From NCBI RefSeq assembly GCF_016638705.1, contig NZ_CP067341.1:4405501-4469500 (forward strand): 64,000 nt of DNA. The letters run 5' to 3'. Below are positions 5,252 through 63,507 of the stretch, in pieces; positions within the stretch are counted from its first letter, which is position 1; each line of letters begins with the position of its first letter. Source of the stretch: Lysinibacillus agricola (lineage in GTDB: Bacteria > Bacillota > Bacilli > Bacillales_A > Planococcaceae). Below the pieces are notes generated by a model, which was not told where the DNA came from, searched no databases, and saw nothing but the letters and a program-made list of their open reading frames with translations. The position numbers were made by a program, and so were the translations under genes.

Positions 5252-6805
5252 GTATTAACTCAAACTTCGCACCAATATAAATCGGCTTAATCATTGAGCT
5301 TGTTTGGTTCTTTACAATTTCAATAGGATTCTTGACAAAATGTTTTATAAATACAAAAAACACCTCATTCTTTGGTATAGTGAATTTGACTAGAATACAC
5401 TACCAAACGAAAGAGGTGCTTTCATTATGATAGAGCATAATGGACCAAACAATCAACTGTCTAAAGAATTAAAATCTATTTTTTTAATGAATTAGAAATT
5501 TTTAAACATTTACGGAAAGCTGGCATTACGAAGAAGTTTGGGTTTACAACTTCTTATTTGTTTCACCTCGTATTCTGTTTAATTTTTCATCAAAAGAGTT
5601 GGTGTACCCTTTTATCATCCAAAAAGGGAGATTGTTATCCAGCCAAAGATGCCGTTTATCGTTTTATGAATCATTCTAAATTTGCTTGGCGTCGTTTTTT
5701 ATCCTTTTTAAGCGCACACGCCGTTCAAAAAGTCGATGCACTAACAGATGAAAAGCGCCCAAAAACACTGATTATTGACGATTCAATGTTTGATCGGAAT
5801 CGTAGTAAAAAGGTTGAGCTTCTCGCACGTTGTATGGATCATTCCTCTTTAACGAAGCGCTTCTATAAAGGCTTTCGTATGCTTACTTTGGGTTGGTCAG
5901 ACGGCTTTACATTTATGCCGCTGGATTTTACGTTACTGAGTTCAAAAAATGCACAAATCAATGGGATTTCGAACAACATCGACAAACGTACCTCGGGCTA
6001 TAAACGTCGTGTAGAATCGTTAGAATCCGCGCCTACAATCATTCCAAGTATGCTTGAAAGAGCCTTACAAGCAGGTGTATCCGCTGATTATGTGTTAATG
6101 GATACGTGGTTTACACAACAACCGCTCATTCAATCCATCGTTGAACTAGGTCTGGATGTCATTGGTATGGTGAAAAAAATACGAACCAACGTTATTTGAT
6201 GAACAACCAACGACTCTCTTTAAAAAGAATTGTATAAGATTGCCACACCTGTCCCAGACAAGAAAGGAATTTTGCGATCGATTCATACAACGATGGCAAA
6301 ATGGCGTTCAGGTAAAGGTTGTATTTGTCCAAAAACAGAAATAAAAAAAGAGTGAGTGGCTTGCCATTCTTAGCACGGACTGTACGCTTTCTGAACAAGA
6401 AATCATTCGTATTTATGGAATGCGTTGGGACATCGAAGTCTTCTTTAAGACAACCAAATCATTATTGAGACTTCAAAAAGAATTTCAAGGGATGTCTTAT
6501 GATTTACTCATCAGTCACACAACCATTGTCTTTTCAAGATATGTCGTTTTGTCCTGGCAAAATCGCTGCCATACCGACCAGCGAACATTAGGTGGCATTT
6601 TCTATGAACTTTGCGATGAAGTAAATGAACTCGATTGGGCTGTCGCTTTACAGCAATTAATCGAGCTTCTTGAAGATACCCTAAAAAAGACAAATACAAA
6701 AATCCAAAAACTAATCAAAAGTCAACTTCAGCAATGGATCGCCAGCCTTCCTAATTATATCAAGGCTTATTTGTCGATTTCAGTCTGCGAAGTTTGAGGT
6801 ATTAA
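5252..6805 (+). mobile_element. IS4-family insertion sequence (1540 bp) with 7-bp target duplication
   Basis: The left end CTCAAACTTCGCA (5259-5271) is exactly repeated in inverse at the right end TGCGAAGTTTGAG (6786-6798). Weaker inverted similarity extends inward to AAATCG. The element is flanked by GTATTAA at 5252-5258 and 6799-6805, a perfect 7-bp direct repeat. Length and duplication size suit the ISPepr1-like branch of IS4. A long imperfect hairpin (CACCTC-TTTGGTA-AGTG arms, about 5360-5420) precedes the transposase and could limit its expression. The transposase is dead in this copy. A related deleted copy is at 27974-28279. Confidence 0.88.
5427..6797 (+). pseudogene. IS4-family DDE transposase, several frameshifts and a stop
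   Basis: ATG 5427 begins MIEHNGPNNQLSKELKSIF, but a frameshift in the T-run near 5480-5490 moves the reading into the frame that encodes a long stretch to 6199. That stretch contains the first catalytic block (TLIIDDSMFDRNRSKKVELL) and the second Asp region (DYVLMDTWFTQQPL). A second shift follows near 6175, then KIATPVPDKKGILRSIHTTM, another shift, and an in-frame TAA near 6345 after VQVKVVFVQKQK. The C-terminal third, MRWDIEVFFKTTKSLLRLQK, has the catalytic Glu (YREK-like region) and is intact to TGA at 6795-6797. At least four lesions rule out a simple programmed frameshift. Confidence 0.9.
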
Positions 6806-48539: not shown

Positions 48540-49313
48540 TTATTGACGTTTCATCCATTCGCAAAGTGCATGTACTGTTTCTCTATTTTTAGTCGGTGGA
48601 TACTGATGAGCATAGCGAAGATCATACCATGTCTCATATGTTTTATTGGCATCCTTTAAATAAAATTCTAATTGTCTTGCATGTTCAATATCTACATTTT
48701 CATCACGGTAGCCATGAATAATAAGTACTGGAGCTGTAATGTTCTCTATCTCAAATAAAGGTGTTCGAGCATCATAAGCCTCTGGTACACGATTCGGCGT
48801 CCCTCCAATAACACGCTTCATCATTCGGCGCATATCTGGCCGCTCCCAATATGTAGCTGTTGCATCAGATACTCCTGCCCATGTCACAACGGATGTAATA
48901 TCTCTACGTAATATTGCAGTCCAAAGTGCCATAATACCACCACGTGAAAAGCCATAGATATGAATATTATCATTACAAAACTGTTTTAGCACGTCTACTG
49001 CGTATACAGCATCATAACGATCCGCTCCTGCAAACTCATCTCGACCTTCTCCACCTCGATTGCCACGATAATATGGGGCAAAAACGATAAAGCCTTGCGC
49101 AGCAAACTGTGCCACACGCGAAGGTCTAACCATACCAATGCTTTGCATGCCTCCACGTAAATATAAAAAGCCATCATATGTACCTTCTGCCTTAGGCTCT
49201 GCTAATAATCCCTTCACACGTAGACCCTGTGACATATAAGTAATCTCTGTTAAACGAATAGCTGGATTCGGTGAAGGATAAGCACGTTTTTCAACGATCT
49301 CCCCATTGGTCAT
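48540..49313 (-). CDS. ytmA: prolyl-oligopeptidase-like serine hydrolase YtmA
   Basis: A 257-residue alpha/beta-hydrolase of the S9 type. The elbow is IYGFSRGGIMALW with S123, the acid residue is in LIIHGYRDENVDIEH and the His in RYAHQYPPTK. An N-terminal propeller is absent, as in B. subtilis YtmA. Its start ATG 49313 (after GGAGGAG) overlaps the ytkD end by 23 bases, indicating translational coupling. Confidence 0.86.
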   Translation of the reverse strand: MTNGEIVEKRAYPSPNPAIRLTEITYMSQGLRVKGLLAEPKAEGTYDGFLYLRGGMQSIGMVRPSRVAQFAAQGFIVFAPYYRGNRGGEGRDEFAGADRYDAVYAVDVLKQFCNDNIHIYGFSRGGIMALWTAILRRDITSVVTWAGVSDATATYWERPDMRRMMKRVIGGTPNRVPEAYDARTPLFEIENITAPVLIIHGYRDENVDIEHARQLEFYLKDANKTYETWYDLRYAHQYPPTKNRETVHALCEWMKRQ

Positions 49314-49773
49314 ACTGTTTCAACTCCTCCAGCATTTTCTGCATTCCTTCATCCTTCATATGAAAGCTTAAATTTGGATGATTTGCAAATTCTTCATCCG
49401 ATAGCCAAGTCATCCCTGACGTTTCTAAATCAAAATCGATGTCCTCCTGCCCTGCAAACTGTGCAGTAAAGACCGTTTTACAAAATAAGATATCATCATG
49501 AACGGCATATTCTGCAAACCATTTAAGATTTTTTACATGAACACCGGTCTCCTCAAATACTTCCCTAATTGCCGCTTGCTCCAATGTTTCTCCAGGTTCT
49601 TGCTTTCCACCTGGAACTTCAACACCACGGCGTTTATGAATTGTACATAACCACTTATTTTCATGTTTTAAAAAAACGAGTACATGCTTAGGCTCAACCT
49701 CAAACTCACCTCTTGAAAAGCTTAAATCCACTCGTAAACCATTTAAATCTGTAAATGAGAACATGCTCTTCAA
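49291..49773 (-). CDS. ytkD: Nudix hydrolase YtkD
   Basis: A 160-residue Nudix protein. The Nudix box GGKQEPGETLEQAAIREVFE then ETG (residues 55-77) contains all GX5EX7REUXEE positions. B. subtilis YtkD hydrolyses 8-oxo-dGTP and has been linked to RNA 5' pyrophosphate removal. AGGAGTTGAAGAGC precedes ATG 49773. It is the first gene of a probable ytkD-ytmA-MBL operon. Confidence 0.9.
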   Translation of the reverse strand: MKSMFSFTDLNGLRVDLSFSRGEFEVEPKHVLVFLKHENKWLCTIHKRRGVEVPGGKQEPGETLEQAAIREVFEETGVHVKNLKWFAEYAVHDDILFCKTVFTAQFAGQEDIDFDLETSGMTWLSDEEFANHPNLSFHMKDEGMQKMLEELKQYDQWGDR

Positions 49774-50273: not shown

Positions 50274-51197
50274 CTATATAACTTGTTTACCATCGAAATA
50301 AACAATTGGGTTTTTAACAACACAATCAATATGGACATCTGCCGCATTTGTACCACCAAAAGGCGCATTACTGCCAAATGCAATATGAATGGTGCCATAG
50401 ACCTTTTCATCTTCAAGTACATTCCCACATAAAATAGCACTTTTGTTTGCACCGATACCAAATTCTGCAATAATACGACCGTTGTCCTCACCTAATAATT
50501 CAAGTAATCGTGGACCATCTGGACCTATTGCTTCTTCTAGTCGGCCATTACGAACCTTTAACAATAATGGTTCCTTTAGTACCCCAATGTTGGCAATTGA
50601 ACCATCGACCAAAATTTCACCATTTGCAGATGTTTCAATAGGAGCAATGTATGACTCTCCCGACGGTATATTACCGTAGTCTCCTGGATTACGGACAATA
50701 CCTGTTGAACGAATACCTAAACGATTTTTTATGCTAAACGTTAGCTCATGTCCATCTTTTACAATCCGTACATTTTTTGCAGGATCAAGTAGGTTAACAT
50801 ATTTTTCCACAAGGACTTCTATTTCACGTGCATCAGCATGAAGTGCACCTTGTTCAAGCATTGCTAATGTAACTCCTGGCATTGTCGCAACTCGTCCACC
50901 GTTTTCACATGCCTTTTTACGAGCCATTGTATGTGTTAGAGAATGGGAGGTAATGCACAGTGTCACATCTACATTGGACATTAACGATGATATAGCGTTA
51001 ATTGGCTCCTGTCCGGATTTCATCAATATTGGCATCACAACTAACATCGTGTTTTCCGTAATGTTTAATCCAGCTTCATGAAAAATTTTTGCGATATCTT
51101 GTTTATGAACATCTGTTAGAATGACAAGTGTTTCTGATGATTGAATATTTAAATTACCTTTTAAGATATTCAGTGCAATCTCATGTAAATGTTGCAT
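50274..51197 (-). CDS. M29/NicX-like metalloenzyme (aminopeptidase type)
   Basis: A 307-residue protein resembling M29 (AmpS/PepS) aminopeptidases and the structurally related NicX dioxygenases. Candidate metal residues are E181 (NIPSGESYIAP), H271 (GTIHIAFGSN) and the HxD pair H289/D291 (AADVHIDCVV), the arrangement kept in both groups. Which chemistry applies is not decidable from sequence alone; the neighbouring M20 and peptide-transporter genes favour a peptidase. It follows the IclR-type gene by 11 bases and ends at a strong terminator. Confidence 0.72.
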   Translation of the reverse strand: MQHLHEIALNILKGNLNIQSSETLVILTDVHKQDIAKIFHEAGLNITENTMLVVMPILMKSGQEPINAISSLMSNVDVTLCITSHSLTHTMARKKACENGGRVATMPGVTLAMLEQGALHADAREIEVLVEKYVNLLDPAKNVRIVKDGHELTFSIKNRLGIRSTGIVRNPGDYGNIPSGESYIAPIETSANGEILVDGSIANIGVLKEPLLLKVRNGRLEEAIGPDGPRLLELLGEDNGRIIAEFGIGANKSAILCGNVLEDEKVYGTIHIAFGSNAPFGGTNAADVHIDCVVKNPIVYFDGKQVI

Positions 51198-51208
51198 ATC
51201 ATTACTCC

Positions 51209-51970
51209 TTAATTGAAATTCAAATGATATCTACGAATAATATCTTCAATTTCATTTTTTGCTTCTGTTAATGGTTCCAATACTTCTGAAATACGTTGTT
51301 CTGTGAAACGATAGGTAGGGCCTGATACAGTAACTGAAGCTACTACCTGTTCTTCACTATTAAATATAGGCATTGCAAGTGCGAGTACGTCCGCCGTATA
51401 TTCACTTTTACTTACTGCATAACCACATTCTCGAATCTTTTCGAGCTCATCCTGAATTTCATTCGCATCTGTCATCGTATTATTGGTATAGGCGATTAAA
51501 GGCTCGTCAATAACTTTTGAAATTTGCTCTTCACTTAAGAAAGCAAGCATCGAACGATAGGAGGCACCTACATAAAGAGGAGTTCTACTTCCTCTTGAAA
51601 CTGAAAATTTTACCTTATTTACAGGCTCTGCTTTCAGCAATGTTAACGCTTCCAGCCCATTTAAAACTGTAAAAACAGCTGTTTCACCTGTTGTATCTTT
51701 TAATTTTTCAAGAATTGGCATACAAAGCTGGTCAATGTTTAGCGAATCATACATATTCATCCCAATTTCCCATATAGCAATTCCAAGAGAGTATTTTTTA
51801 GTAATAGGATCTTTTGTAATAAATCCGTTATTCTCAAATGTCTCAAGTATTCGATATAAATTTGTATGATTCATATTCATTGCCGTTGCTAGCTCACGCC
51901 CACCCCATGAGGGCTTTTCCTTTGTAAACATCTTTAAAACAGCAATCGATAAATTTAAAGTTTTTAGCAT
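51209..51970 (-). CDS. IclR-family transcriptional regulator
   Basis: A 253-residue regulator. The N-terminal winged HTH (SWGGRELATAMNMNHTNLYR then ILETFENNGFI) and C-terminal effector domain (TADVLALAMPIFNSEEQVVA then SVTVSGP) are those of the IclR family. ATG 51970 has AAGGATGAGAG upstream; the frame also offers an ATG at 51979. It is probably the regulator of the cluster, whose divergent promoters carry a 13-bp dyad at 58743 and 58882 (inference; no copy of the dyad was seen upstream of this gene). Confidence 0.88.
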   Translation of the reverse strand: MLKTLNLSIAVLKMFTKEKPSWGGRELATAMNMNHTNLYRILETFENNGFITKDPITKKYSLGIAIWEIGMNMYDSLNIDQLCMPILEKLKDTTGETAVFTVLNGLEALTLLKAEPVNKVKFSVSRGSRTPLYVGASYRSMLAFLSEEQISKVIDEPLIAYTNNTMTDANEIQDELEKIRECGYAVSKSEYTADVLALAMPIFNSEEQVVASVTVSGPTYRFTEQRISEVLEPLTEAKNEIEDIIRRYHLNFN

Positions 51971-52018
51971 CTCTCTCATCCTTTTGATCTATTTATCCCG
52001 CATTAACAGGCAGAAATT

Positions 52019-52085
52019 TATCTGTGCGAAAGCGAAGCGACAGCAACAAATGTTTTCTGTGCGAAAGCGAAGCGACAGCAACAAG
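52019..52085 (+). repeat. two tandem GCGAAAGC units
   Basis: TGTGCGAAAGCGAAGCGACA starts at 52023 and again at about 52059, with AGCAACAAATGTTTTC between, then GACTCCCACCTC, which recalls the 303-318 hairpin of the 103-bp element. Confidence 0.75.
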
Positions 52086-52168
52086 ACTCCCACCTCAACA
52101 TTCAGAGAAAGCAAAGAAGTTAGGTAGGAGATGAACTGCCAGCAAAGGCCTGATTGGTGAAGACTAAT

Positions 52169-52201
52169 AATCAGTGGGGATGTAGAAAACCCCCACTGAT
52201 T
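52169..52201. repeat. AATCAGTGGGG palindrome, short form
   Basis: AATCAGTGGGG (52169-52179) pairs with CCCCACTGATT (52191-52201), followed by AAAGTTTCAC, the same outer arm as at 31926. It lies upstream of the iclR gene. Confidence 0.65.
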
Positions 52202-52310
52202 AAAGTTTCACTTTATCTCGTACAAACGGTTGCATATTACTTTTACTTCAAAAAGGGGGAATAATTGAAGTGGTAAAATATTAAGCAACCGCAAGTACCA
52301 GGTCCATTTA

Positions 52311-52383
52311 ACTTTAATCAGTGGAGGATGAAGAGGAGGCTAAGAACACTGCCGTCCTGTGCGTCATCCCCCACCGATTAAAG
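52311..52383 (-). terminator. AATCAGTGGGG-family stem-loop, long form, after the M20 gene
   Basis: ACTTTAATCAGTGGAGGATG and CATCCCCCACCGATTAAAGC are nearly perfect arms with a loop of about 32 bases. It lies 36 bases beyond the M20 stop and may terminate the operon. Confidence 0.55.
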
Positions 52384-52418
52384 CTTCACATAATCAAAAG
52401 CAAGAGAGTAGCATTCTC

Positions 52419-53687
52419 TTACTTTTGATATAGGAAATCAATTACAGCAGTAATATACACTTTTGCGCAGCGTACGATATCCTCAACACGTACTTTTTCG
52501 TTATAGCCATGAATACTTGGTAAATAAGCTGGACCATATTGCAGCACGGGAATATCATATTGTCTGAAATGACGAGCGTCGCTACTTGCCCATTGCATAA
52601 CGCCATACGCCTCTTTTCCCGTAACAAATGAAATATTTTCAACAATTGATTTACATACTGGATTTTCCGCTGGGGTGTAGTTTGCCACACTTTTAAATCC
52701 AAAACGTTTTATCAAATAGTCAATATTCAATGCATCCAATTTATTTTTCAAAATTTCAGATACTTCTTCTTGAGTAATACCGAATGGTAGGCGGCAATCT
52801 ACCTGAACCTTACAATAATCTGGAATAACGTTGGACTTCGTACCTCCCTCAATTGTACCAATATTTACAGTAATTTTCTCTAGAACTTCTTGATATTTCA
52901 AGCGATCTTTTTCAACTTCACGCATATATTTTTTTGATACTTCAATAAGAGGCTGTACTTCTTCAGGAATATTAATAGTAAGATCCCATAATGTACGAAT
53001 TTCATTGATAGCACGAATAGCATCTACAATGGCGTTTTTCCCGGCTAATGGTGACAAGCTTCCATGTCCTGGTTCCCCACGCACTTCTAATTCAAACCAA
53101 TATGAACCTTTTTGACCAATTGTAGGATTTAAAGGTGAAGAAGGCTCTGCAATTAAACAGCCATCCCCCTTTATTAAACCACGCTCTAAAAGCCAAGGAA
53201 CCCCATACTCGCCACCAGTCTCTTCATCTGGCACAATCGCTAATGTTAGCTTTCCAGGTAATTCAATATTTAATTTTTTCAGCATTTTTGTTGCAAAAAT
53301 AATACCTGCTAAACCTGCCTTCATGTCACTTGCCCCACGGCCAAGCATCCAGCCATCCTTCACTTCCCCAGAAAAAGGATTAAAATCCCATTTTGAAAGA
53401 TCTCCAACCGGAACAACATCTGTATGTCCACAATAGACTAACTCCTTACCCCCATCATTACCAATAGAAGCTACTAAGTTAAACATATTATCTGCAGATT
53501 CATATTTTTCATATGGAATGTTCACTTCATTTAAATAATTTTCTATAAAATTTGTAATTTCAGTTGTATCTCCGGGGGGATTGACACTTGGTATTTGAAT
53601 TAATTTAGAACAAAATTCAATTAATTCATTCTTGTTATTTTCAACTTCATTGATTAATCGCAGTTTGAGCTCTTGAAAATCATTCAT
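52419..53687 (-). CDS. M20 metallopeptidase (ArgE/DapE/CPG2-like)
   Basis: A 422-residue M20 hydrolase. Metal and catalytic blocks are LVYCGHTDVVPVGDLSKWDF, GRGASDMKAGLAGIIFA and VPDEETGGEYG; the dimerisation lid has GQKGSYWFELEVRGEPGHGS. The family removes acyl groups or C-terminal residues from small amides and peptides. ATG 53687 overlaps the DUF1177 stop (ATGAATGA, 53680-53687), so translation is coupled; the frame opens earlier at 53702, but GAGGT suits 53687. It is part of the import/degradation operon. Confidence 0.87.
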   Translation of the reverse strand: MNDFQELKLRLINEVENNKNELIEFCSKLIQIPSVNPPGDTTEITNFIENYLNEVNIPYEKYESADNMFNLVASIGNDGGKELVYCGHTDVVPVGDLSKWDFNPFSGEVKDGWMLGRGASDMKAGLAGIIFATKMLKKLNIELPGKLTLAIVPDEETGGEYGVPWLLERGLIKGDGCLIAEPSSPLNPTIGQKGSYWFELEVRGEPGHGSLSPLAGKNAIVDAIRAINEIRTLWDLTINIPEEVQPLIEVSKKYMREVEKDRLKYQEVLEKITVNIGTIEGGTKSNVIPDYCKVQVDCRLPFGITQEEVSEILKNKLDALNIDYLIKRFGFKSVANYTPAENPVCKSIVENISFVTGKEAYGVMQWASSDARHFRQYDIPVLQYGPAYLPSIHGYNEKVRVEDIVRCAKVYITAVIDFLYQK

Positions 53688-54633
53688 GTGCGCGTACCTC
53701 ATTTCCTTTTGTTTGTAAATGATTCATGCTACCATATAGCTTTTCAATGAGGGTGAATTGCTTTTCATCATAGAAAGAGCATTTATTGGCACCATAAGTT
53801 TTAGCTACTTCTAACACGAAACGAGCTACATTCTCTACATCTGTAACATGAGTTGCACCTGTTGCACAGCCTGCAACTACTGATTCTGTAGTAATGGCAA
53901 CACCTACCACTGGGCTTGATGTAGCAACTGCTGGTTGTAAAATACTATTTATATGGAATAAGCCATTTCCATATGGTGTAATATCCTGTGTTGTAATGGG
54001 CATTACTACTGGTGAAATTCCTGCTGATTGGGTGTAAACATGTAATAAATCATCACTAATTTTTAAAATATAGCCCTCTTTGACAGTAGGTGTAATAGCA
54101 AATCCTTTATGGTTACAAACTTGATTGCCCTTCGTTGTATCGATGGATAAAATGGCATCCATTTCTGCATCTACCTCGTTCTCATTCATGACACTAATAT
54201 CGACTGGTGAGTTCATGAACGGCACTGGCTTATGTGGTAAAGTTGGTGCTGTTGGACAAATATGCGTTGTGAAAATAACATCTCCTACAAATCGATCACC
54301 CTTTAATACCATATCTATAGCTTTTGCTGCACTTGCCATACATGCTAACGCACCATCACCATCGGACACAAAACCTGTCATTTCTGGACGTGCACCAATT
54401 CCACCTAAACGTCCAATAATGCCTAAAGTTGGCGCACTCCCTCCGGATGATTTACCGTTCTTTCCTTTAACAAGAACCTTTACAAAATCAGTAGAACCTT
54501 TTTCACCTGTAATCGTTTTTACAGTAACATCCGCTGACGGATCAATATTGTGTAAGTAATCTTTGACAACTTCCCCATTCACATAAACACTATCCATTAC
54601 CTCGTATAATTCAATGACATGTTTTAATGACAT
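53680..54633 (-). CDS. DUF1177 family protein
   Basis: A 317-residue protein recognised as DUF1177 by VYVNGEVVKDYLHNIDPSAD, GIIGRLGGIGARPEMTGFVS, TTHICPTAPTLPHKPVPFMN and the C-terminal VAGCATGATHVTDVENVARF. No function is known. The conserved His, Cys and Asp residues (THICPTAP, SDGDGALACMA) suggest an enzyme. It is coupled to the M20 gene and lies 208 bases downstream of the ABC-transporter genes. DUF1177 genes often sit by such peptidase/transporter sets (from memory), which supports a shared pathway. Confidence 0.85.
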   Translation of the reverse strand: MSLKHVIELYEVMDSVYVNGEVVKDYLHNIDPSADVTVKTITGEKGSTDFVKVLVKGKNGKSSGGSAPTLGIIGRLGGIGARPEMTGFVSDGDGALACMASAAKAIDMVLKGDRFVGDVIFTTHICPTAPTLPHKPVPFMNSPVDISVMNENEVDAEMDAILSIDTTKGNQVCNHKGFAITPTVKEGYILKISDDLLHVYTQSAGISPVVMPITTQDITPYGNGLFHINSILQPAVATSSPVVGVAITTESVVAGCATGATHVTDVENVARFVLEVAKTYGANKCSFYDEKQFTLIEKLYGSMNHLQTKGNEVRAHE

Positions 54634-54841
54634 AATAATTGCGCTCCTTTTTTAATCAATAATGCCTCGCTCTCACAGGCACTCATTTTGATAGCACTTA
54701 GTAAACATCAAGTGATTTGGATTTTTAACCCATGCTTCAAAATTCTGTCTAAGGCTTTTACTGTAATGTTGATCACTTAGGCATTGCCAAAGTTAATTTC
54801 TCATCTAACTGTAGTTATCGTTTACCCAGCCATAAGTTACG

Positions 54842-55849
54842 TTAAGTAGTTGGGACTTCCTCCCGAATTGAGTTAAATAAATGACAGGATACTTGATGTG
54901 TTACAGTAACCGAATCGAGTATAGGCTGAACTTGTGAACATTTTTCCGTTGCAAATCGGCAACGTTTATGAAATGCGCAGCCACTCGGTGGGTTAACTGG
55001 ACTCGGAACGTCCCCAGATAAAATAATGCGTTCCTTCGTATCAAACGGATTTTCTTTAGGAATTGCCGATAATAAAGCTTGCGTATATGGATGCTGAGGA
55101 TTCTCGTATATTTCTTCATACGTACCAATCTCTACGATTTTTCCTAAATACATGACCGCAATACGATCACACATATAATTCACAACATTTAAATCGTGTG
55201 AAATGAAAATATATGTTAAACCGAATTCCTTCTGTAAATCTTTCAATAAATTAATAACCTGGGCTTGAACAGATACATCGAGTGCTGAAACTGGTTCATC
55301 GCATATGACAATATCTGGGTTTAACGCAAGCGCACGAGCAATGTTAATACGTTGTCTTTGTCCACCAGAAAATTCATGTGGATAGCGCTTTGCATGATAG
55401 GCACTTAAGCCAACTGTTTCAAGTAAGTCTACGACACGTTTTTTGCGTGATGCATCGTCACCAATGCCGTGAATCACTAGTGGCTCAGCAATTAAGTATT
55501 CAATCGTTTTTCGTGGATCGAGTGAAGCATACGGATTTTGAAATACCATTTGTATCGATTTACGCGCTGAGCGAATATCTGTTGTACTTACACTTGCTAA
55601 ATCGATTCCGTTAAACTCTACTTTTCCTTCTGTCGGTGTAATTAATTGATTGATTAAACGTGCGACAGTCGATTTACCACATCCAGATTCACCAACAATG
55701 CCTAGTGTTTCACCTTTATATAATTCAAAGCTTACACCGTCTACTGCTTTTACAAATTGTGTTGTCTTTTTAAAAGGAATAGAACTTTTAATAGGAAAAT
55801 GCTTTTTTAAATTACTCACTTTTAGTATTAGCTCTTTATTGTGCTGCAT
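54842..55849 (-). CDS. oligopeptide/dipeptide ABC transporter ATPase (OppF/DppF-like)
   Basis: A 335-residue ABC ATPase. Walker A is GESGCGKSTVARLI, the signature FSGGQRQRINIARALAL and Walker B DIVICDEPVSALDVSVQAQV. The C-terminal oligopeptide-transporter cysteine block SGCAFHKRCRFATEKCSQVQ is typical of OppF/DppF and may hold an Fe-S cluster. ATG 55849 follows AAGGAGGG and overlaps the OppD-like gene by 14 bases. It pairs with that ATPase to energise the importer. Confidence 0.93.
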   Translation of the reverse strand: MQHNKELILKVSNLKKHFPIKSSIPFKKTTQFVKAVDGVSFELYKGETLGIVGESGCGKSTVARLINQLITPTEGKVEFNGIDLASVSTTDIRSARKSIQMVFQNPYASLDPRKTIEYLIAEPLVIHGIGDDASRKKRVVDLLETVGLSAYHAKRYPHEFSGGQRQRINIARALALNPDIVICDEPVSALDVSVQAQVINLLKDLQKEFGLTYIFISHDLNVVNYMCDRIAVMYLGKIVEIGTYEEIYENPQHPYTQALLSAIPKENPFDTKERIILSGDVPSPVNPPSGCAFHKRCRFATEKCSQVQPILDSVTVTHQVSCHLFNSIREEVPTT

Positions 55850-56855
55850 TAAAAATTCCCTCCTTACGTTCTACAATTTGTTCTTTCGATTGCAGATGGC
55901 AAGCCACAAAATGATTGTCTTGAACCTCCACTAATTTAGGTTCTTTACTACGGCAAATATCTGTTGCCAAAGGACAGCGAGAAGAGAAATGGCAGCCACT
56001 ATGCGGCATCGATAAATCTGGTGGACTTCCTGGAATCGCCGGTAGCCTGTCATGCTCTTGAGTGCCCATCGTAATTTGTGACTCAAGTAACCCCCATGTG
56101 TAAGGATGCAATGCATTTTCATAAAGTTGTCTAGTTGTAGTGGATTCTACAATTCGTCCTGCATACATGACATTTACTTTGTCACAAAGCTCCCATACAA
56201 CACCTAAATCGTGTGTAATCATAATGATGGCAGTATCGTGCTCCAGCTGTAGTTTTTTCATTAAATCTAGAATTTGTGCCTGTACCGTTACATCCAGCGC
56301 TGTAGTAGGTTCATCTGCTATAAGCAGCTTTGGATTACATGCTAATGCAATGGCAATCATGACACGCTGTCTCATTCCACCTGAAAATTCGTGTGGATAC
56401 ATTTTCAAACGTTTTTCAGGCTCTGGAATACCTACCATTTTTAGCATGTCAACAGCTTTCACACTTGCTTCTTTCTTTGATAAATTTTCATGAGCACATA
56501 TTACTTCAATAATCTGATTACCTACTGTTAAGACTGGATTTAAACTTGTAATAGGATCCTGGAAAATCATCGACATTTCATTACCTCGTACATTGCGCAT
56601 TTCCTTTTCCGATATCCCTAGTAAGTCACACCCATTAAAATGAATTTTCCCATTAGTAATTTTTCCTGGCGGAGATGGGATTAAACGCATTAATGCTGTA
56701 GCTGTAACACTTTTGCCCGAACCTGATTCTCCAACAATTCCAAGTGTTTCCTTCTTATTTAATTGTAAATTTACGCCATTTACAGCTTTCATCGTCGAAC
56801 CACCACTCTTAAATTCAACTGTTAAATTTTCTACATCTAGTAAACGTTCAGTCAT
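55836..56855 (-). CDS. oligopeptide/dipeptide ABC transporter ATPase (OppD/DppD-like)
   Basis: A 339-residue ABC ATPase. Walker A is [15 protein letters not shown], the signature [16 protein letters not shown] and Walker [21 protein letters not shown]. The [20 protein letters not shown] cysteine block is present. It is the D-type partner of the F-type ATPase that follows. GGGGGGAGTC precedes ATG 56855. All four membrane/ATPase genes run in one transcript from the promoter near 58763-58792. Confidence 0.93.
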
Positions 56856-56873
56856 GACTCCCCCCCTTCCATA

Positions 56874-57740
56874 TCAAACTTTCATTTTCGGATCTAGTGC
56901 ATCACGTAATCCATCGCCTAAAAGGTTAATGCCAAGTACAGTTAATAAAATACAAATTCCTGAGAATGTCGCCATTTGAGGATTTAACACTAGAAAATCT
57001 TTTCCATCTTTCAAAATACTTCCCCATGAAGCTGTAGGAGGTTGGATTCCTAATCCTAAAAAGCTCAGTGCTGCCTCAGATATAATTGCCCCAGCAGTAC
57101 TCATCGTGCCGTAAACAATTAAAGGCGCCAGACAGTTTGGTAAAATATGACTAAAAATAATACGTGTATGTGTAGCACCTAATGAATGCGTTACCTCAAT
57201 AAACTCTTCCTCTTTCACACTTAATACTTGTCCTCGAACAAGTCGTGCAAACCCTGGTATATTGGCAATACCAATGGCCACAATAACATTCACTAAACCT
57301 TGACCTAGCACTGTCATTAAAGTGATTGCTAATAAAATGAATGGGAAAGCAAACAGACCATCCATTGTGCGCATGATGACAGAGTCTAAACGACCTCCAA
57401 AATAACCTGCAACTAATCCAAGTAATGTGCCAAATACTGCTCCAAACAGCACCGCAGCAATACCAACAACCATTGAAATTTGCGTACCATAAACTAAACG
57501 GCTAAACAAATCACGACCATAATTATCTGTACCGAGTAAATGCCCCTCTGTATTCATCGGTAAAAATGATTTTCCAACAGTCATTTCATTCGGCGAATGG
57601 GTTGCAATTAACGGAGCAAAAATGGCTACAATCGTCATCATTGCAACTATTATTAAACCGATTGTCGCCAATTTGTTTTTTAACAACTTTCGTAGCAATG
57701 TATTTTTCTTTTGATTGTCATTTACAATTGCTTGAACCAT
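56874..57740 (-). CDS. peptide ABC transporter permease (DppC/OppC-like)
   Basis: A 288-residue permease with an N-terminal anchor (LLRKLLKNKLATIGLIIVAM) and six helices. The BPD loop is EEFIEVTHSLGATHTRIIFS then HILPNC (EAA motif). The N-terminal NEMTVGKSFLPMNTEGHLLG then TDNYGRDLFSRLVYG block is diagnostic of OppC/DppC. It starts two bases after the permease B stop. It forms the heterodimeric channel with the B subunit. Confidence 0.93.
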   Translation of the reverse strand: MVQAIVNDNQKKNTLLRKLLKNKLATIGLIIVAMMTIVAIFAPLIATHSPNEMTVGKSFLPMNTEGHLLGTDNYGRDLFSRLVYGTQISMVVGIAAVLFGAVFGTLLGLVAGYFGGRLDSVIMRTMDGLFAFPFILLAITLMTVLGQGLVNVIVAIGIANIPGFARLVRGQVLSVKEEEFIEVTHSLGATHTRIIFSHILPNCLAPLIVYGTMSTAGAIISEAALSFLGLGIQPPTASWGSILKDGKDFLVLNPQMATFSGICILLTVLGINLLGDGLRDALDPKMKV

Positions 57741-57742
57741 AT

Positions 57743-58705
57743 TTACTTTTTCCTCCCATCTGATTCTAGATTTACTTTTGGATTTACAACTTTATATAAA
57801 ACATCAACAACTAAGTTAATAAGTACAAAGATGAAAGCAATAAAAATTACTGTTCCTTGTACAACTACAAAATCACGCTTATCAATAGCATCTACAATAA
57901 GTCGTCCCATACCTGGCCAACTAAATATAGTTTCGGTTAGTACGGCACCACCGAGTAAATTTGAAATTTGCATCCCTAGTACAGTTAAAATTGGTGTTAA
58001 AGCATTTTTAAATGCATGCTTACCGATAACTAAATATTCTTTAATTCCTTTCGAACGTGCGGTTTTAATGTAATCTTGCGAAATAACCTCAAGCATACTT
58101 GAACGTGTAATACGTGCAAATGTCGCCATCGGAATAGTAGCTAAAGCAAATGCTGGCAAGATTAAATGTTTCATAAATTCCCAAAGTCCATCATCTAAAT
58201 TACCCATCCCCGTAGCTGGTAGCCATCCGAGGTTGACACTAAAGAATAGAACTAACATAATCCCTAACCAAAAGATTGGCATAGAAACACCAACTAAAGA
58301 TACGAGCATTACTGCATAATCAATCATTGTATTTTGTTTTCTTGCTGCTAATATTCCAGCTGGAATCCCAATGACTACTGCAATTAGTAGCGCTGCCAAA
58401 GCTAATATCACTGTATTAGGAAATCTTTCTACAATGAGCCCAATGACAGATTCACTATAAGAATAGGAATATCCTAAATTAAGCTGCGCTAAGTCTGCTA
58501 CATAGGAAATAAATTGTGAAGGGAGCGATTTATTTAAACCTAACGTTTCTCTTAAATTCTCTACATCTTCCACACTGGCTTGGGGTCCAAGCATTACAGA
58601 CGCTGGATCACCAGGTATCATCCTAGTAATAATAAAAACAATGATTCCTACTACTAGGAGTGTGGGAATGAGGTTAAACAACCTCTTTACAATAAATGAG
58701 CCCAT
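57743..58705 (-). CDS. peptide ABC transporter permease (DppB/OppB-like)
   Basis: A 320-residue permease. MGSFIVKRLFNLIPTLLVVG, GDPASVMLGPQASVEDVENL and the EAA loop DYIKTARSKGIKEYLVIGKH then AFKNALTPI are characteristic of DppB/OppB. ATG 58705 follows AAGGAGG. It is the first gene of the minus-strand operon, with a -10 and operator-like dyad just upstream. Confidence 0.94.
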   Translation of the reverse strand: MGSFIVKRLFNLIPTLLVVGIIVFIITRMIPGDPASVMLGPQASVEDVENLRETLGLNKSLPSQFISYVADLAQLNLGYSYSYSESVIGLIVERFPNTVILALAALLIAVVIGIPAGILAARKQNTMIDYAVMLVSLVGVSMPIFWLGIMLVLFFSVNLGWLPATGMGNLDDGLWEFMKHLILPAFALATIPMATFARITRSSMLEVISQDYIKTARSKGIKEYLVIGKHAFKNALTPILTVLGMQISNLLGGAVLTETIFSWPGMGRLIVDAIDKRDFVVVQGTVIFIAFIFVLINLVVDVLYKVVNPKVNLESDGRKK

Positions 58706-58742
58706 TATTCCAAGACCTCCTTTTCATTATTTGAAACAGTGA

Positions 58743-58894
58743 TTCATATTGTGAATAATCAAATAGTACACCTCACTAACTTTGTTTGTAAATACTTTTT
58801 TCAGAATTTTTATAATTTTATATTTACTTTTGGTTTACATTTGTGCTACTTTTATGTCGAACCTATATTTCGAATCAATGGTTCATATTGTGAA
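58743..58894. promoter_or_regulatory. divergent promoters with a duplicated 13-bp dyad
   Basis: TTCATATTGTGAA occurs at 58743-58755 and 58882-58894. Plus-strand promoter: TTGTGC (58841-58846), 17 bases, TATATT (58864-58869), 12 bases before the second dyad. Minus-strand promoter: TTTACA (58792-58787), 18 bases, TACTAT (58768-58763), 7 bases before the first dyad. Both dyads therefore sit where a repressor would block early transcription. Confidence 0.65.
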
Positions 58895-58919
58895 ACAACA
58901 AACAAGGAGGCTAGCAAGT

Positions 58920-60524
58920 ATGAAGCGAATAAATGTAAAAAGATTCTTACTACTATTGTTATTAACTTTAATAATTGGTGTATTAGCTGCTTGCGGTGGC
59001 GGTAAATCAAATAATGGGAGTTCATCTGGAGAAAAAGATGGAGAAGCTACATCTGGTGGGACATTAAATGTCGGACTTTCCGCAAATGCAAAAACATTTG
59101 ACCCTATAAAATACACAGGGGTTTATGAATCACAAGTAATGCGCCAAATGGCTGACACTTTAGTTGTTTACAACAAAGATTTATCGGATATCATTCCTTC
59201 ATTAGCAACGGAATGGAAAGTATCTGATGATATGTTAGTCTATACATTTAAGTTACGTGAAGGCGTTAAATTCCAAAAAGGTCAATACCAAGATGGCCGT
59301 GAAATGACTGCTGAAGATGTGAAGTATTCATTAGAGCGTTCTGCAAAAGAATCTGCCATGAATCGTTTAAGCGGTGTAACAGAAGTAAAAATAATTTCCG
59401 ATCATGAGGTTGAAATTCATTTAGCATCTCCGAATGCCGCTTTACTAGCCATGCTAACGGATGCAGGTAATGTCATTATTCCAAAAGAAGAAGTTGAAGG
59501 CTGGGGAGATAATTTCTCTGAGCATTTCATAGGGACAGGTCCTTTCCAATTAACTGAATGGAAAAAAGACCAAGAAGTCAAACTAGTGCGTAATGAAAAC
59601 TACTGGGGTGAAAAACCTCACATTGATAACTTAACAATGAAATTTATCTCTGATCAAAACATGATGACAAATGCATTACGTTCTGGCGATATTGATATCG
59701 CTATGGATGTAAAAGGTCAAAACCGTGAAATTATTAGTCAAGATAGTAATTTAGAGCTTTTAACAAATCCAGGTTTATCAATTGTCTATCTTGATCTGAA
59801 CAACAAGGTAGGCCCAACAGCCGATAAGCGAGTGCGTGAGGCTATCTATAAAGCAACTAATGTAGAGGAAATTATCTCTGGTGTTAACCAATGGGGTGGC
59901 GGTGATGTTTCTTATTTACCTCTACCACCAGGCTCATGGGGTTATGATAAGTCTTTAACGGAATTAGTACCAACTTACAATCCTGAGGAAGCGAAAAAAA
60001 TATTAGCTGAAGCTGGATATCCTGATGGTTTCAAAACTGAAATTTATGTATCACAGGCACGTGTACCTTATGCAACTATTTTCCAAAGTCAATTAAAGAA
60101 AAACTTAAACATTGACGTTGAAATTAAAGTTCTTGAGTGGGGAACTTACAGTGACACAGTAGCTAAAGGGAAAGCACCAATGAATATTGGTGGTTGGACT
60201 TGGTATCCGGATCCATACTTCTTCCTATATCAATTGTTCCACACAAATCAAATTGGCGCTTTAGGTAATGGTAAAGGCTATAGCAATCAAGAAGTTGATA
60301 AATTATTAGAACGGGCTGTATCTGAAACAGTTGTTCAAGAAGAACGTGCAAAACTATATCAAGAAGCTTTAAAACTTATTTTAGCTGATGTTCCACGAAT
60401 TGAATTAGAGGCAACACAAACAGTGGCTGGTATTAACAAAAAGGTAAAAGGCTTTGAGGTTTCTGCAGATAACTCCCTACAAATCGTACATCCAAACGGC
60501 ACAAACGTTTCAATTTCTAAATAA
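58920..60524 (+). CDS. peptide-type substrate-binding lipoprotein (SBP family 5)
   Basis: A 534-residue solute-binding protein. The lipoprotein signal MKRINVKRFLLLLLLTLIIG ends in the lipobox LAAC with Cys25, followed by a GGGKSNNG linker. SBP_bac_5 hallmarks are VYESQVMRQMADTLVVYNKD, GREMTAEDVKYSLERSAKES and GTGPFQLTEWKKDQEVKLVR. It should capture the substrate for the DppBC-OppDF importer. AAGGAGG precedes ATG 58920; the frame opens at 58782 but that leader is not a signal peptide. A terminator (60532-60562) separates it from the amidohydrolases. Confidence 0.93.
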   Translation: MKRINVKRFLLLLLLTLIIGVLAACGGGKSNNGSSSGEKDGEATSGGTLNVGLSANAKTFDPIKYTGVYESQVMRQMADTLVVYNKDLSDIIPSLATEWKVSDDMLVYTFKLREGVKFQKGQYQDGREMTAEDVKYSLERSAKESAMNRLSGVTEVKIISDHEVEIHLASPNAALLAMLTDAGNVIIPKEEVEGWGDNFSEHFIGTGPFQLTEWKKDQEVKLVRNENYWGEKPHIDNLTMKFISDQNMMTNALRSGDIDIAMDVKGQNREIISQDSNLELLTNPGLSIVYLDLNNKVGPTADKRVREAIYKATNVEEIISGVNQWGGGDVSYLPLPPGSWGYDKSLTELVPTYNPEEAKKILAEAGYPDGFKTEIYVSQARVPYATIFQSQLKKNLNIDVEIKVLEWGTYSDTVAKGKAPMNIGGWTWYPDPYFFLYQLFHTNQIGALGNGKGYSNQEVDKLLERAVSETVVQEERAKLYQEALKLILADVPRIELEATQTVAGINKKVKGFEVSADNSLQIVHPNGTNVSISK

Positions 60525-60531
60525 CTTAGCA

Positions 60532-60562
60532 AGAAAAGTGGAGATGCAGATCTCCGCTTTTC
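60532..60562 (+). terminator. hairpin between the binding protein and the amidohydrolases
   Basis: AGAAAAGTGGAGAT pairs with ATCTCCGCTTTTCT, with a three-base loop. The T-run is poor, so it may attenuate rather than stop, raising the binding protein above the enzymes. Confidence 0.7.
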
Positions 60563-60586
60563 TATTCATATGGAGGGAATTTAACG

Positions 60587-61648
60587 ATGACTCGTTATAT
60601 AAATGGACTCGTTTTCAATTCTGAGACTCGTAGTTTTGAAAAAAGCAATTTTCAAGTACATGGACAATATTTCAAACAATCGAATACCTTTGAAACAAAA
60701 ATCGATTTAGATGGTTATTACATCACTCCCGGCTTTATCGACAGCTGCTCACAAATTGGACTAGCTGAAATTGGTATTCGCTGGGAGGGTGATGATAGTT
60801 TTGAGTTTGAATCAAATATACAATATTCAGTCGTAGATGGAATATATCCGTTTGATACCGCATTTAAAAAAGCAATTTCACATGGCGTCACTTCATCTCA
60901 TATTGTTCCCTCTCCTAAAAGTTTGATTGGCGCGAAAACAGCAATTATACATCACACCCATACAACTGTTGATGAGATGGTAATAAAACAAGGTGTCGCC
61001 TACTCCTTTTCAATTGGTCAAAATGCCAAAAGTACGTTTTTTGCCGAGAAGAAAAAGCCATTGACTCGTATGGGTATTGCTAAGATTATGAGAGAAACAC
61101 TCCAACAAATTAAAGAGCAGGAGCCTCTAATTCGAAAAATTGTGGTACGAGCACATAAAGCTGTCGATATCGAACTAATTGTCCGCCTACAGCAAGAATT
61201 CGAATTTGATTTCCATATCATCCATGGCACTGAAATCCCGCTTCTAGAGGATCCATCATTGAATACAGTTATTGCAGGCCCTACATTCCGTCATATTGAG
61301 CATAACGAAATGATGGCACTGTCACCCAAATTATATAAGCAGTTTGCAGCAAATAGCATTCCATTTGTATTGTGCACAGATCATCCCATAAGTAATGCAA
61401 CTCATCTAGCACTTGAAGCCTGTTTAGCGGTTCGTGAAGGATTATTACGTCAGGATATGGTTTATGCGTTAACGACTGGTGCAGCAACTTTCCTTGGAAT
61501 AGAACATATAACAGGTTCCATTAAAGATGGTTTACTAGCTGATTTTGTTGTCTGGAATAAGCATCCTTTAGATTTAGATGCAAAAGTTGTTGCCACTTTT
61601 ATTAAGGGTAAAAAAGTATACGCATGGGAAGAGGAAATGACAAAATGA
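60587..61648 (+). CDS. amidohydrolase-fold protein lacking the HxH metal motif
   Basis: A 353-residue imidazolonepropionase-like amidohydrolase homologue. The first-strand motif normally GxIDxHxH reads GFIDSCSQIGLAEIG, so both histidines are replaced (C54 and Q56). The second-strand region has RAHKAVDI in place of HCHRADDI. HGTE and the late Asp (CTDHP) are kept. It is therefore probably a catalytically altered partner of the next gene, whose start overlaps its stop by ATGA. GGAGGG precedes ATG 60587. Confidence 0.8.
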   Translation: MTRYINGLVFNSETRSFEKSNFQVHGQYFKQSNTFETKIDLDGYYITPGFIDSCSQIGLAEIGIRWEGDDSFEFESNIQYSVVDGIYPFDTAFKKAISHGVTSSHIVPSPKSLIGAKTAIIHHTHTTVDEMVIKQGVAYSFSIGQNAKSTFFAEKKKPLTRMGIAKIMRETLQQIKEQEPLIRKIVVRAHKAVDIELIVRLQQEFEFDFHIIHGTEIPLLEDPSLNTVIAGPTFRHIEHNEMMALSPKLYKQFAANSIPFVLCTDHPISNATHLALEACLAVREGLLRQDMVYALTTGAATFLGIEHITGSIKDGLLADFVVWNKHPLDLDAKVVATFIKGKKVYAWEEEMTK

Positions 61649-62787
61649 TTATTTATCATCATGCAAAATTTATAGCAGTAAATGAACAGAATGATATCTT
61701 TGAACAGCTATGGATAGAAGATGGTCGAATTGACTATGTAGGGCCTGCTAGAGAGATCCCTGACAATGCTGAAGTAGTTGATTTACATGGAGCATTTGTG
61801 ACACCAGGTTTAATTGATATTCATGCACATGTTGGTACGTGGGCAGAGGTTACTGAGGATATTAATGATGCCAATGAATATAGCGAACCGTTCACCCCCC
61901 TCATGCACGCTTTGGACAGTGTAGATATTCGTCACTTTTCTTTTCAGCATGCTCTTGAAGGTGGCGTAACTACCGTTCAAACGGGGCCAGGAAGTGCCAA
62001 TGTCATCGGCGGGATTTGGAGCATATTAAAAACTGCGGGTCCTACACTTTCTTCAAGACTACTAGTTGAGCGTAGTGGCTTAAAGGGCGCTTTAGGTGAA
62101 AATCCTAAAAATGTTTTTGGCAATCAATATAAGCGTAAGCCTATGACACGTATGGCAATTGCTCAATTATTACGCGATGGCTTCCAACGTGCCGCTCGTC
62201 TAAGTAAAGAAGAAAAAACAGAGCATGTAAAACATAATTTAGAGTTACGTCCATTTATCGAGGTGCTACAAGGCGAAATGCCACTGCGTCTTCACTGTCA
62301 CCGAGCAGATGATATTATGACTGCGATTCGTATTGCAAAAGAATTTAATGTACAGCTACATTTAGAGCACTGTACGGAAGGACATATGATTGTTGATGCT
62401 GTGAAAGCTAGTGGATTTAATACAACTATTGGGCCCTATATGCTGACACCATCAAAATATGAAACTCGTAATTCAACACCAGCAATCGCAAAAATTTTTA
62501 AAGAACACCATATTCCATTTGCTATTATGACTGACCATCCATTTGTACCAATTCAATATTTAAAGTATTGTGCTTCTGAGGCAATTCGATATGGATTAGA
62601 TGAAGAAACAGCATTAAGAAGTATCACCATTAATGCCGCTAAACTTGTACAGCTCGATCATCGAATCGGCTCTCTTGAGGAAGGCAAAGATGCAGATTTC
62701 GTAGTTTGGTCTCATCCTATTTTTGAAACAGAAGCGAAAGTGCTACAAACCTATGTGAATGGTAAAAAACATTATGAAGCGGAGTGA
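61645..62787 (+). CDS. amidohydrolase (imidazolonepropionase-like)
   Basis: A 380-residue metal-dependent amidohydrolase with all ligands: H60/H62 in GLIDIHAHVGTW, RLHCHRADDI, LEHCTEGHMI and TDHPF. GGVTTVQTGPGSANVIGGIW and RSGLKGALGENPKNVFG match the amidohydrolase subgroup typified by imidazolonepropionase-like proteins, not HutI itself. It would hydrolyse a cyclic amide or an amide bond. ATG 61645 overlaps the preceding stop (ATGA), and the frame's earlier ATG 61624 lies within the preceding gene. It is followed within seven bases by aroM. Confidence 0.9.
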   Translation: MIIYHHAKFIAVNEQNDIFEQLWIEDGRIDYVGPAREIPDNAEVVDLHGAFVTPGLIDIHAHVGTWAEVTEDINDANEYSEPFTPLMHALDSVDIRHFSFQHALEGGVTTVQTGPGSANVIGGIWSILKTAGPTLSSRLLVERSGLKGALGENPKNVFGNQYKRKPMTRMAIAQLLRDGFQRAARLSKEEKTEHVKHNLELRPFIEVLQGEMPLRLHCHRADDIMTAIRIAKEFNVQLHLEHCTEGHMIVDAVKASGFNTTIGPYMLTPSKYETRNSTPAIAKIFKEHHIPFAIMTDHPFVPIQYLKYCASEAIRYGLDEETALRSITINAAKLVQLDHRIGSLEEGKDADFVVWSHPIFETEAKVLQTYVNGKKHYEAE

Positions 62788-62793
62788 AAAAAA

Positions 62794-63465
62794 TTGGTGG
62801 AATCAAAAATCGCAATCGTCACAATTGGTCAAGCACCTCGCAAGGACATGGCCGCGGATATCAAACAATTAGAAAATGCTGGTTTACATGTCACAGAATT
62901 TGGTGTACTTGATTTACTGACGTCTTCAGAAATTGCAGCACTTGCTCCAACCAGTGAAGATTCAGATGTTTTAGTAACTCTTCTCGCAAATGGTGAGCAG
63001 ATACAGCTAAGTAAAAAAAAGCTGATGCCTTTTATTCAGAAACGAATTTATGAACTTAAGGAATTTACTTGGGTTTTACTTATGTGCACAGGCGATTTTA
63101 CTAACACATTATCTGGCAAAAATCTATTACTTCCTGACCGCATGATGACCTATTTAGTAAGAGGCATGAATGCTGATTTAACGCTCGGTTTGATTGGACC
63201 TGAGCCCGAGCAGCAAATTAGCGTTGCTGAGAAATGGCAAAAGTCACGATTTAATGTAACATTTGAGGCTAGTTCTCCTTATCGTTTTAACGAACAAGAT
63301 TTATTGGCAAAGGCTAAGTCATTAGAAATACGCGGTGCCGAATTACTTATATTAGATTGTATGGGTTACTCTACTGCCATGAAAAATGTGATTAAAAACA
63401 AGCTTAGTATTCCTGTCATAGTACCACGAGAAGCTGTCTTTACTATTTTAAAAGCTATTTGTTAA
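62794..63465 (+). CDS. AroM family protein, Asp/Glu-racemase-like
   Basis: A 223-residue AroM-family protein, recognised from KIAIVTIGQAPRKDMAADIK, VLLMCTGDF and GAELLILDCMGYS. Two cysteines, C98 and C189, lie in the two halves in positions that recall the two catalytic cysteines of cofactor-independent Asp/Glu/hydantoin racemases. AroM function is unknown. The start is TTG 62794 (or GTG 62797) after GGAGTG. It is the last gene of the plus-strand operon and is followed by a bidirectional terminator. Confidence 0.85.
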   Translation: MVESKIAIVTIGQAPRKDMAADIKQLENAGLHVTEFGVLDLLTSSEIAALAPTSEDSDVLVTLLANGEQIQLSKKKLMPFIQKRIYELKEFTWVLLMCTGDFTNTLSGKNLLLPDRMMTYLVRGMNADLTLGLIGPEPEQQISVAEKWQKSRFNVTFEASSPYRFNEQDLLAKAKSLEIRGAELLILDCMGYSTAMKNVIKNKLSIPVIVPREAVFTILKAIC

Positions 63466-63473
63466 AAGCAAAG

Positions 63474-63507
63474 GAGGGTCACTGAATTTTTTCAGTGACC
63501 CTCTACT
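63474..63507. terminator. bidirectional terminator after aroM
   Basis: GAGGGTCACTGAA (63474-63486) pairs with TTCAGTGACCCTC (63491-63503) across TTTT. Confidence 0.9.

Follow-up and report, generated by a model that had tools for sequence, protein, structure and literature searches.

We analysed a 64,000-nucleotide window of Lysinibacillus agricola (positions 4405501-4469500 of its single-contig 5.29-Mb genome, NZ_CP067341.1), in which an initial annotation made from the DNA letters had described a 13-kb cluster with a peptide importer and two protein families of no known function, DUF1177 and AroM. We called genes from a list of open reading frames (ORFs) and searched the cluster proteins against Pfam and NCBIfam profiles. 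All of the genes that had been named are present at their places. They make up a single cluster in content, but they lie on two divergent arms rather than in one operon. We think it fairly likely that the two arms, arranged around a single intergenic region, form one regulon.

The minus arm comprises dppBCDF, DUF1177 and the genes for M20, IclR and M29-like proteins. Reading away from the intergenic region, it encodes the Opp/Dpp permeases DppB (57743-58705; PF00528 and PF19300) and DppC (56874-57740; PF00528 111.1 bits, PF12911 44.8 bits), the ATPases DppD (55836-56855; PF00005 105.6 bits, PF08352 65.5 bits) and DppF (54842-55849; NF008453 449 bits against a cut-off of 408, with PF00005 and PF08352), the DUF1177 protein (53680-54633; PF06675 445.5 bits), an M20 deacylase or peptidase of the ArgE/DapE subfamily (52419-53687; TIGR01910 293.1 bits, cut-off 217.6) whose start lies at ATGAATGA, an IclR-family regulator (51209-51979; PF01614 138.7 bits, PF09339 27.3 bits) and a 307-residue M29-like metalloenzyme (50274-51197; PF02073 38.7 bits, cut-off 27). 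The plus arm encodes a solute-binding lipoprotein of the SBP_bac_5 (SBP5) family (58920-60524, start ATG at 58920; PF00496 313.6 bits), amidohydrolase A (60587-61648), amidohydrolase B (61645-62787; PF01979/PF07969) and AroM (62794-63465; PF07302 193.2 bits). The start-stop overlaps reported earlier are real, with ATGAATGA at the DUF1177/M20 junction, 14 bases shared by DppD and DppF, and ATGA between amidohydrolases A and B. A hairpin with a 13-pair stem 3′ of AroM (63474-63503, listed on the minus strand by the scan) is the likely end of the plus arm, and the hairpin scan alone gives no evidence (7 sites versus 8.3 in shuffles).

We assessed the linkage of DUF1177 and AroM by profile searches of 398 genomes of the phylum. 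DUF1177 was detected in 46 genomes and AroM in 41 at >50 bits (45 at an E value of 0.001). Both families were present in 36 genomes, DUF1177 only in 10 and AroM only in 5 (Fisher's p = 1e-36, kinship ignored), and the two lay ≤10 kb apart in 28 of the 46 genomes with DUF1177. AroM matches below 50 bits were excluded from this count in four genomes (G052, G088, G200 and G226), of which G088 has DUF1177, so counting its match raises the overlap to 37 of 46. Among four archaeal loci, AroM adjoins DUF1177 in one (L136). The closest named relatives of the window DUF1177 are from Lysinibacillus. The L. agricola genome also carries a second, adjacent DUF1177-AroM pair (2524583-2526056), preceded by a gene for a PucR-like regulator. 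This PucR-like gene (L005:8678-10316, about 2522677-2524315) is split over two overlapping frames and may be broken or reflect an assembly error. Two further genomes (G311 and G354; loci L056 and L060) have a tandem AroM pair and no DUF1177 within the fetched 19 kb. The association of the two families is thus conserved, and it is better supported than could have been known from the window. A full-text literature search, which covers few subscription papers, returned no description of a DUF1177-AroM system; DUF1177 is mentioned in the accessible part of PMC4738358, whose title concerns another DUF.

To survey neighbouring families we fetched loci from 32 of the 46 DUF1177 genomes, 8 AroM-centred stretches and 80 further loci. 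Where two frames overlap, our ORF caller retains the longer, and it called DUF1177 in 31 of the 32 and 75 of the 80 loci. In the 80-locus set, which holds the best 80 of at least 576 matches and is biased to near relatives, the neighbours were AroM (54), M20 (48), M29-like (46), SBP5 (41), OppBC (40), IclR (32), PucR (24), OPT (22), a PF01177 racemase (21), DUF917 (20) and amidohydrolase (18), where the PucR, OPT, PF01177 and DUF917 identities each derive from one Pfam-scanned cluster member. The 31-locus set gave PucR 18, AroM 17, racemase 16, M29-like 12, M20 11, DUF917 10, OPT 9, OppBC 9, IclR 2 and amidohydrolase 0. As a control we counted 14 families in 20 random 19-kb regions from 11 DUF1177-bearing genomes: 13 of them, DUF1177 included, were absent, the exception being the Opp ATPase (4 of 20 regions). 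DUF1177 and AroM repeatedly share their neighbourhood with each other, with peptide transporters and with hydrolases, so that the survey by which the initial annotation could have been refuted speaks in its favour.

The neighbourhoods take two forms. In Bacillaceae and their kin, SBP5, OppBC, OppDF, DUF1177, M20 and IclR occur together, usually with the M29-like gene and often with the amidohydrolase pair and AroM on a divergent arm; the gene order is the same across several Bacillaceae genera. In Clostridia and others, PucR, the racemase, OPT, DUF917, DUF1177, AroM and the M29-like gene are found in varying order and number. Alkalihalobacillus sp. BA299 (L098) has both forms in tandem. On the DUF1177 tree the window protein falls within a clade of 23 Opp-type rows (support 100/98), and the second copy of the same genome belongs to another clade, together with OPT-type rows. 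The Opp label changes 12 times and the OPT label 13 times, of which 8 and 10 changes are forced by well-supported branches, the label "neither" including short contigs. The transporter type thus seems to have been switched repeatedly. Beside DUF1177-AroM in 10 loci (e.g. L037:9705-10529) there is a family of about 280 residues, whose scanned member has no Pfam match. Two genes 3′ of the M29-like gene (window 48540-49773), by eye NUDIX-like and alpha/beta-hydrolase-like, hold the same position in the window and in the eight Lysinibacillus loci; no other fetched locus has them there. Elsewhere in the window (5558-6797), two ORFs appear by eye to be pieces of one transposase gene.

The intergenic region contains an exact tandem palindrome, TTCA-N5-TGAA-N7-TTCA-N5-TGAA (58723-58755), and a second predicted site, one exact palindrome, just 5′ of the binding-protein start (58882-58894). 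We scanned the intergenic regions of 23 divergent loci for the pair with ≤2 mismatches. It was found in 22 of the 23 loci, twice in 14 of them (36 pairs in total), although these loci are related (Lysinibacillus accounts for 8 of the 22 fetched) and these sequences also served to define the motif. In 200 control sets, resampled from the dinucleotide frequencies of each region and not exact shuffles, the mean was 0.035 pairs and the maximum 1, and palindrome spacings of 14 to 19 and 21 to 29, in place of 20, gave 0 to 2 pairs. The exact pair occurs once in the genome, and the next best match has two mismatches. In seven co-directional loci the pair was present in 3 of 9 SBP5 upstream regions, and it was present in none of 15 OPT/PucR loci. 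An operator first written as TTCANAATANTGAA had the wrong spacing, and its matches in the window (≤2 mismatches, 24 versus 22.7 expected) led us to reject it. The pair lies just downstream of a promoter-like TTTACA-18-TACTAT for the dppB arm (58763-58792, minus strand), as for a repressor site. The TTTAC of this site is identical in 22 alignment rows, and the promoter scan alone is no evidence (56 sites versus 50.2 in shuffles). The tandem palindrome is probably the operator of both arms, judging from its conservation and position, and the IclR protein, which would bind the palindromes, is probably the repressor of both. Co-regulation, as claimed at the outset, accordingly has the backing of a conserved predicted operator rather than of transcripts.

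The DUF1177 protein had been left without a function, and a fold can now be predicted for it. Its model (predicted local distance difference test, pLDDT, 85.5; predicted template modelling score, pTM, 0.89) matched zinc exopeptidases of the M28, M20 and M42 families in the PDB at 8 to 15 percent identity. The canonical ligands of this fold are the His of an HxD motif, an Asp, a Glu, an Asp or Glu and a His, with an additional catalytic Glu. Although the predicted fold is common to DUF1177 and these exopeptidases, the HxD His is found only in the latter: none of 110 DUF1177 proteins has a His at the corresponding place (columns 73-79), where R75 is conserved in 109 and L76 and G77 in all 110. 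D91 and D165 are likewise present in 110 of 110 and H262 in 92, and T123-H124 comes after the strand on which the zinc-exopeptidase family has its Glu-Glu. The register was inferred from the strand order and weak profile matches (M42 6, M28 0.1 and M20 26 percent probability, which serve as register support only), and searching PDB sequences with the DUF1177 profile yielded three rows, the best at an E value of 0.14. The model suggests a zinc-exopeptidase fold with an altered metal site, which, as the HxD His is missing throughout, would have been rebuilt or lost.

For AroM, the description as racemase-like is supported. Its predicted model (pLDDT 93.2) has a racemase fold, and two cysteines are near-invariant (C98 in 81 and C189 in 80 of 82 proteins). 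Members of the Asp/Glu/hydantoin racemase superfamily use two catalytic cysteines, and the modelled fold and cysteines support membership of AroM in this superfamily. The M20 cluster, which mixes M20 sub-families, retains the Glu pair in 67 of 67 members, the His in 51 and the Asp in 50. The M29-like protein of the window has all five of E181, E245, H271, H289 and D291, which we take to be the M29 metal ligands, as do 53 of 70 cluster members (54 when the first Glu is disregarded). The other 16 form a longer sub-family (354-381 residues; L037:951-2033 and 15 others) with Q-H-E-H-D in place of the E-E-H-H-D of the window; its scanned member has no Pfam match. We also considered the M29-like protein as a NicX-like ring-opening dioxygenase; its match to the NicX-type structure 7cn3 has an E value of only 0.0069. 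Blautia and Anaerococcus are anaerobes, and because the gene is present in their loci, we do not favour this role.

Four hydrolase-type enzymes had been counted in the cluster; one of them, amidohydrolase A, lacks the HxH metal motif expected after strand 1 and is probably not catalytic. We aligned 38 family members, including 17 A copies that adjoin B and AroM, plus L103_3. HxH is lost in 16 of these 18 A copies, mostly as IDxCSQIG, together with one later His, and all 16 are from Bacillaceae-type clusters. HxH is kept in all 18 B copies (17 plus L103_2), and the window B also keeps the later His and Asp motifs. Outside the Bacillaceae-type group, L058 and L105 keep HxH in both amidohydrolase copies. 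In the second copy of L105 (L105_5; L105:4660-6986) the later motif positions differ, the reverse of the window pair, so function loss in one copy may be repeated, on either side. We predict from the alignment that amidohydrolase A is a conserved pseudoenzyme in the group of the window and probably a partner subunit of B, with the ATGA overlap suggesting translational coupling. The closest solved structure to B is 3ooq, an entry named only amidohydrolase; the sequence match is strong (phmmer E value 8.5e-76 over 29-384), whereas B is paired with an HxH-less partner. Among its best 25 models, B scored highest with imidazolonepropionase (66 bits, compared with 38 for hydantoinase), below every cut-off.

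The importer has a complete set of Opp/Dpp parts: two permeases, two ATPases with an oligo_HPY tail and the SBP_bac_5 lipoprotein, whose nearest solved relative (5u4o) has no named ligand. Two unrelated peptide-type importers, Opp and OPT, alternate with the same enzymes. On balance, the transporter seems likely to import a small peptide or peptide-like compound. We class the cluster as a module for peptide-type uptake and catabolism that is centred on two uncharacterised families. The initial annotation had suggested that a peptide-like or cyclic amide compound is taken up and opened stepwise, an interpretation that we keep as a hypothesis. We consider it reasonably probable that the system carries out IclR-controlled uptake and stepwise intracellular breakdown of a small peptide-like compound. 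Starting from what was computed (gene content, linkage, predicted folds, the HxH loss in A and the conserved palindromes), we infer the enzyme activities, the order of steps and the substrate as follows. The SBP5-Opp importer would take in the small peptide or peptide-like compound. IclR would repress both arms through palindromes between promoter and first gene until the substrate or a breakdown product releases it. Amidohydrolase B, held with the catalytically silent A, would open or trim the compound, AroM would invert a stereocentre by two-cysteine chemistry, as an epimerase, and the M20, M29-like and DUF1177 proteins would remove acyl or amino-acid parts.

Several observations weigh against this scheme. 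AroM above 50 bits is missing from 10 of the 46 DUF1177 genomes. Four divergent loci (L084, L086, L087 and L092) have neither AroM nor amidohydrolases in the fetched stretch, and two (L096 and L101) have AroM and no amidohydrolases, so AroM and the amidohydrolases are not essential to the core. Two gaps interrupt the minus arm, one of about 210 bases ahead of DUF1177 and one of about 440 bases that separates M20 from IclR. The latter (window 51985-52410) holds repeats that are dispersed over the genome, namely a short unit that occurs in tandem arrays about 36 bases apart and a second element, about 160 bases long, of which there are roughly ten near-full copies. With these gaps and repeats, the genes of the minus arm may be divided among several transcripts. 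When ≤3 mismatches are allowed, 122 forward sites in the genome match the operator pattern against 60 for a control pattern, which makes loose matches meaningless, and only close ones count. The fold matches of DUF1177 include the transferrin receptor, which is not an enzyme; this match and the missing metal motif mean that DUF1177 may not be a hydrolase. The binding protein also matches SBP5 types named for nickel, haem and staphylopine, and the importer therefore does not fix the substrate.

The substrate clues point to peptide-like, possibly cyclic compounds and disagree on a single one; plausible candidates are cyclic dipeptides or compounds with D-residues. In B. subtilis, the dpp/ykf operon handles D- and murein peptides and includes an epimerase of the enolase superfamily. 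By analogy, the window with its Opp/Dpp importer, peptidases and epimerase could scavenge D-residue peptides from the cell wall or other D-amino-acid peptides, and the combination of a racemase-fold AroM, a peptide importer and exopeptidase-type enzymes is consistent with this. An M55 D-aminopeptidase is found near AroM of L105, but this is a single case (a C1-type peptidase is also nearby), no M55 match was obtained among the 12 cluster proteins with Pfam, and the window differs from dpp/ykf in its other enzyme families and its Asp/Glu racemase fold. We regard D-residue scavenging as rather unlikely. An ordinary importer with a loose peptidase set, whose genes would be linked through amino-acid scavenging in general and would serve no dedicated substrate, is improbable in our judgement: several of the families are common peptidases and the kind of transporter switches repeatedly along the DUF1177 tree, but the neighbour families other than the Opp ATPase are absent from the random regions, gene order is kept across several Bacillaceae genera and the palindromes are conserved.

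A hydantoinase-type system would use AroM as racemase, amidohydrolase B as hydantoinase and M20 as N-carbamoylase, with a peptide-type importer. The three corresponding superfamilies are all in the cluster. In L134 (by Pfam) and L128 (through membership of the same clusters as L134), DUF1177-AroM is accompanied by genes for DUF917, a HyuA-like protein, a PF02133 permease and a carbon-nitrogen hydrolase, and L045 encodes a TIGR01879 hydantoinase/carbamoylase (457.9 bits, cut-off 204) three genes from AroM. In the window, however, M20 passes the ArgE/DapE model and TIGR01879 is outside its best 25 of 53 models (the 25th scoring 80.8 bits), amidohydrolase B falls below the hydantoinase cut-off, and Pfam detected no DUF917 or HyuA among the cluster proteins; we give this pathway little credence. 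Breakdown of cyclic dipeptides (diketopiperazines), with the Bacillaceae form as a branch of a pathway that elsewhere has a cyclodipeptide oxidase, seems similarly improbable to us. It is suggested by two OPT-type clusters: L045, where separate nitroreductase, PF19585 and TIGR01879 genes come right after AroM, and L117:11642-14148 (uncultured Blautia), where a nitroreductase-PF19585 fusion follows the M29-like gene and PF01177 racemase. The accessible part of PMC11055893, which calls AroM uncharacterised and racemase-like and where the term DUF1177 was not found, describes an enrichment of AroM, DUF917, hydantoin racemase, OPT and Opp genes around cyclodipeptide oxidases, in clusters that likewise combine AroM, a PF01177 racemase, DUF917, OPT/Opp and peptidases. 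The window, in contrast, has no oxidase, DUF917 or OPT, and the substrate of the oxidase might be a different compound. Of 33 DUF1177 genomes searched, 2 have PF19585, which is near DUF1177 in one of the two, and the genome of the window has none; we thus rejected the idea that the oxidase belongs to the module in general.

Tentatively, and with the odds against it, we suggest that DUF1177 and AroM catalyse successive steps in a widespread, undescribed pathway for D-residue or cyclic dipeptides. AroM would epimerise a peptide stereocentre, and DUF1177 would be a new type of metalloenzyme in which the zinc-exopeptidase metal site has been rebuilt (candidates D91, D93, H124, E153, D165, D217 and H227). 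From clade to clade, the importer would alternate between Opp and OPT and the regulator between IclR and PucR, and the ring would be opened by DUF917, by a cyclodipeptide oxidase or by an amidohydrolase that has a pseudoenzyme partner. Two of our claims are concrete and can be checked: the pseudo-amidohydrolase pair and the predicted IclR operator. For DUF1177 and AroM, which occur in many bacteria and some archaea, the shared context, the predicted folds and the candidate catalytic residues make the chemistry of both families testable.

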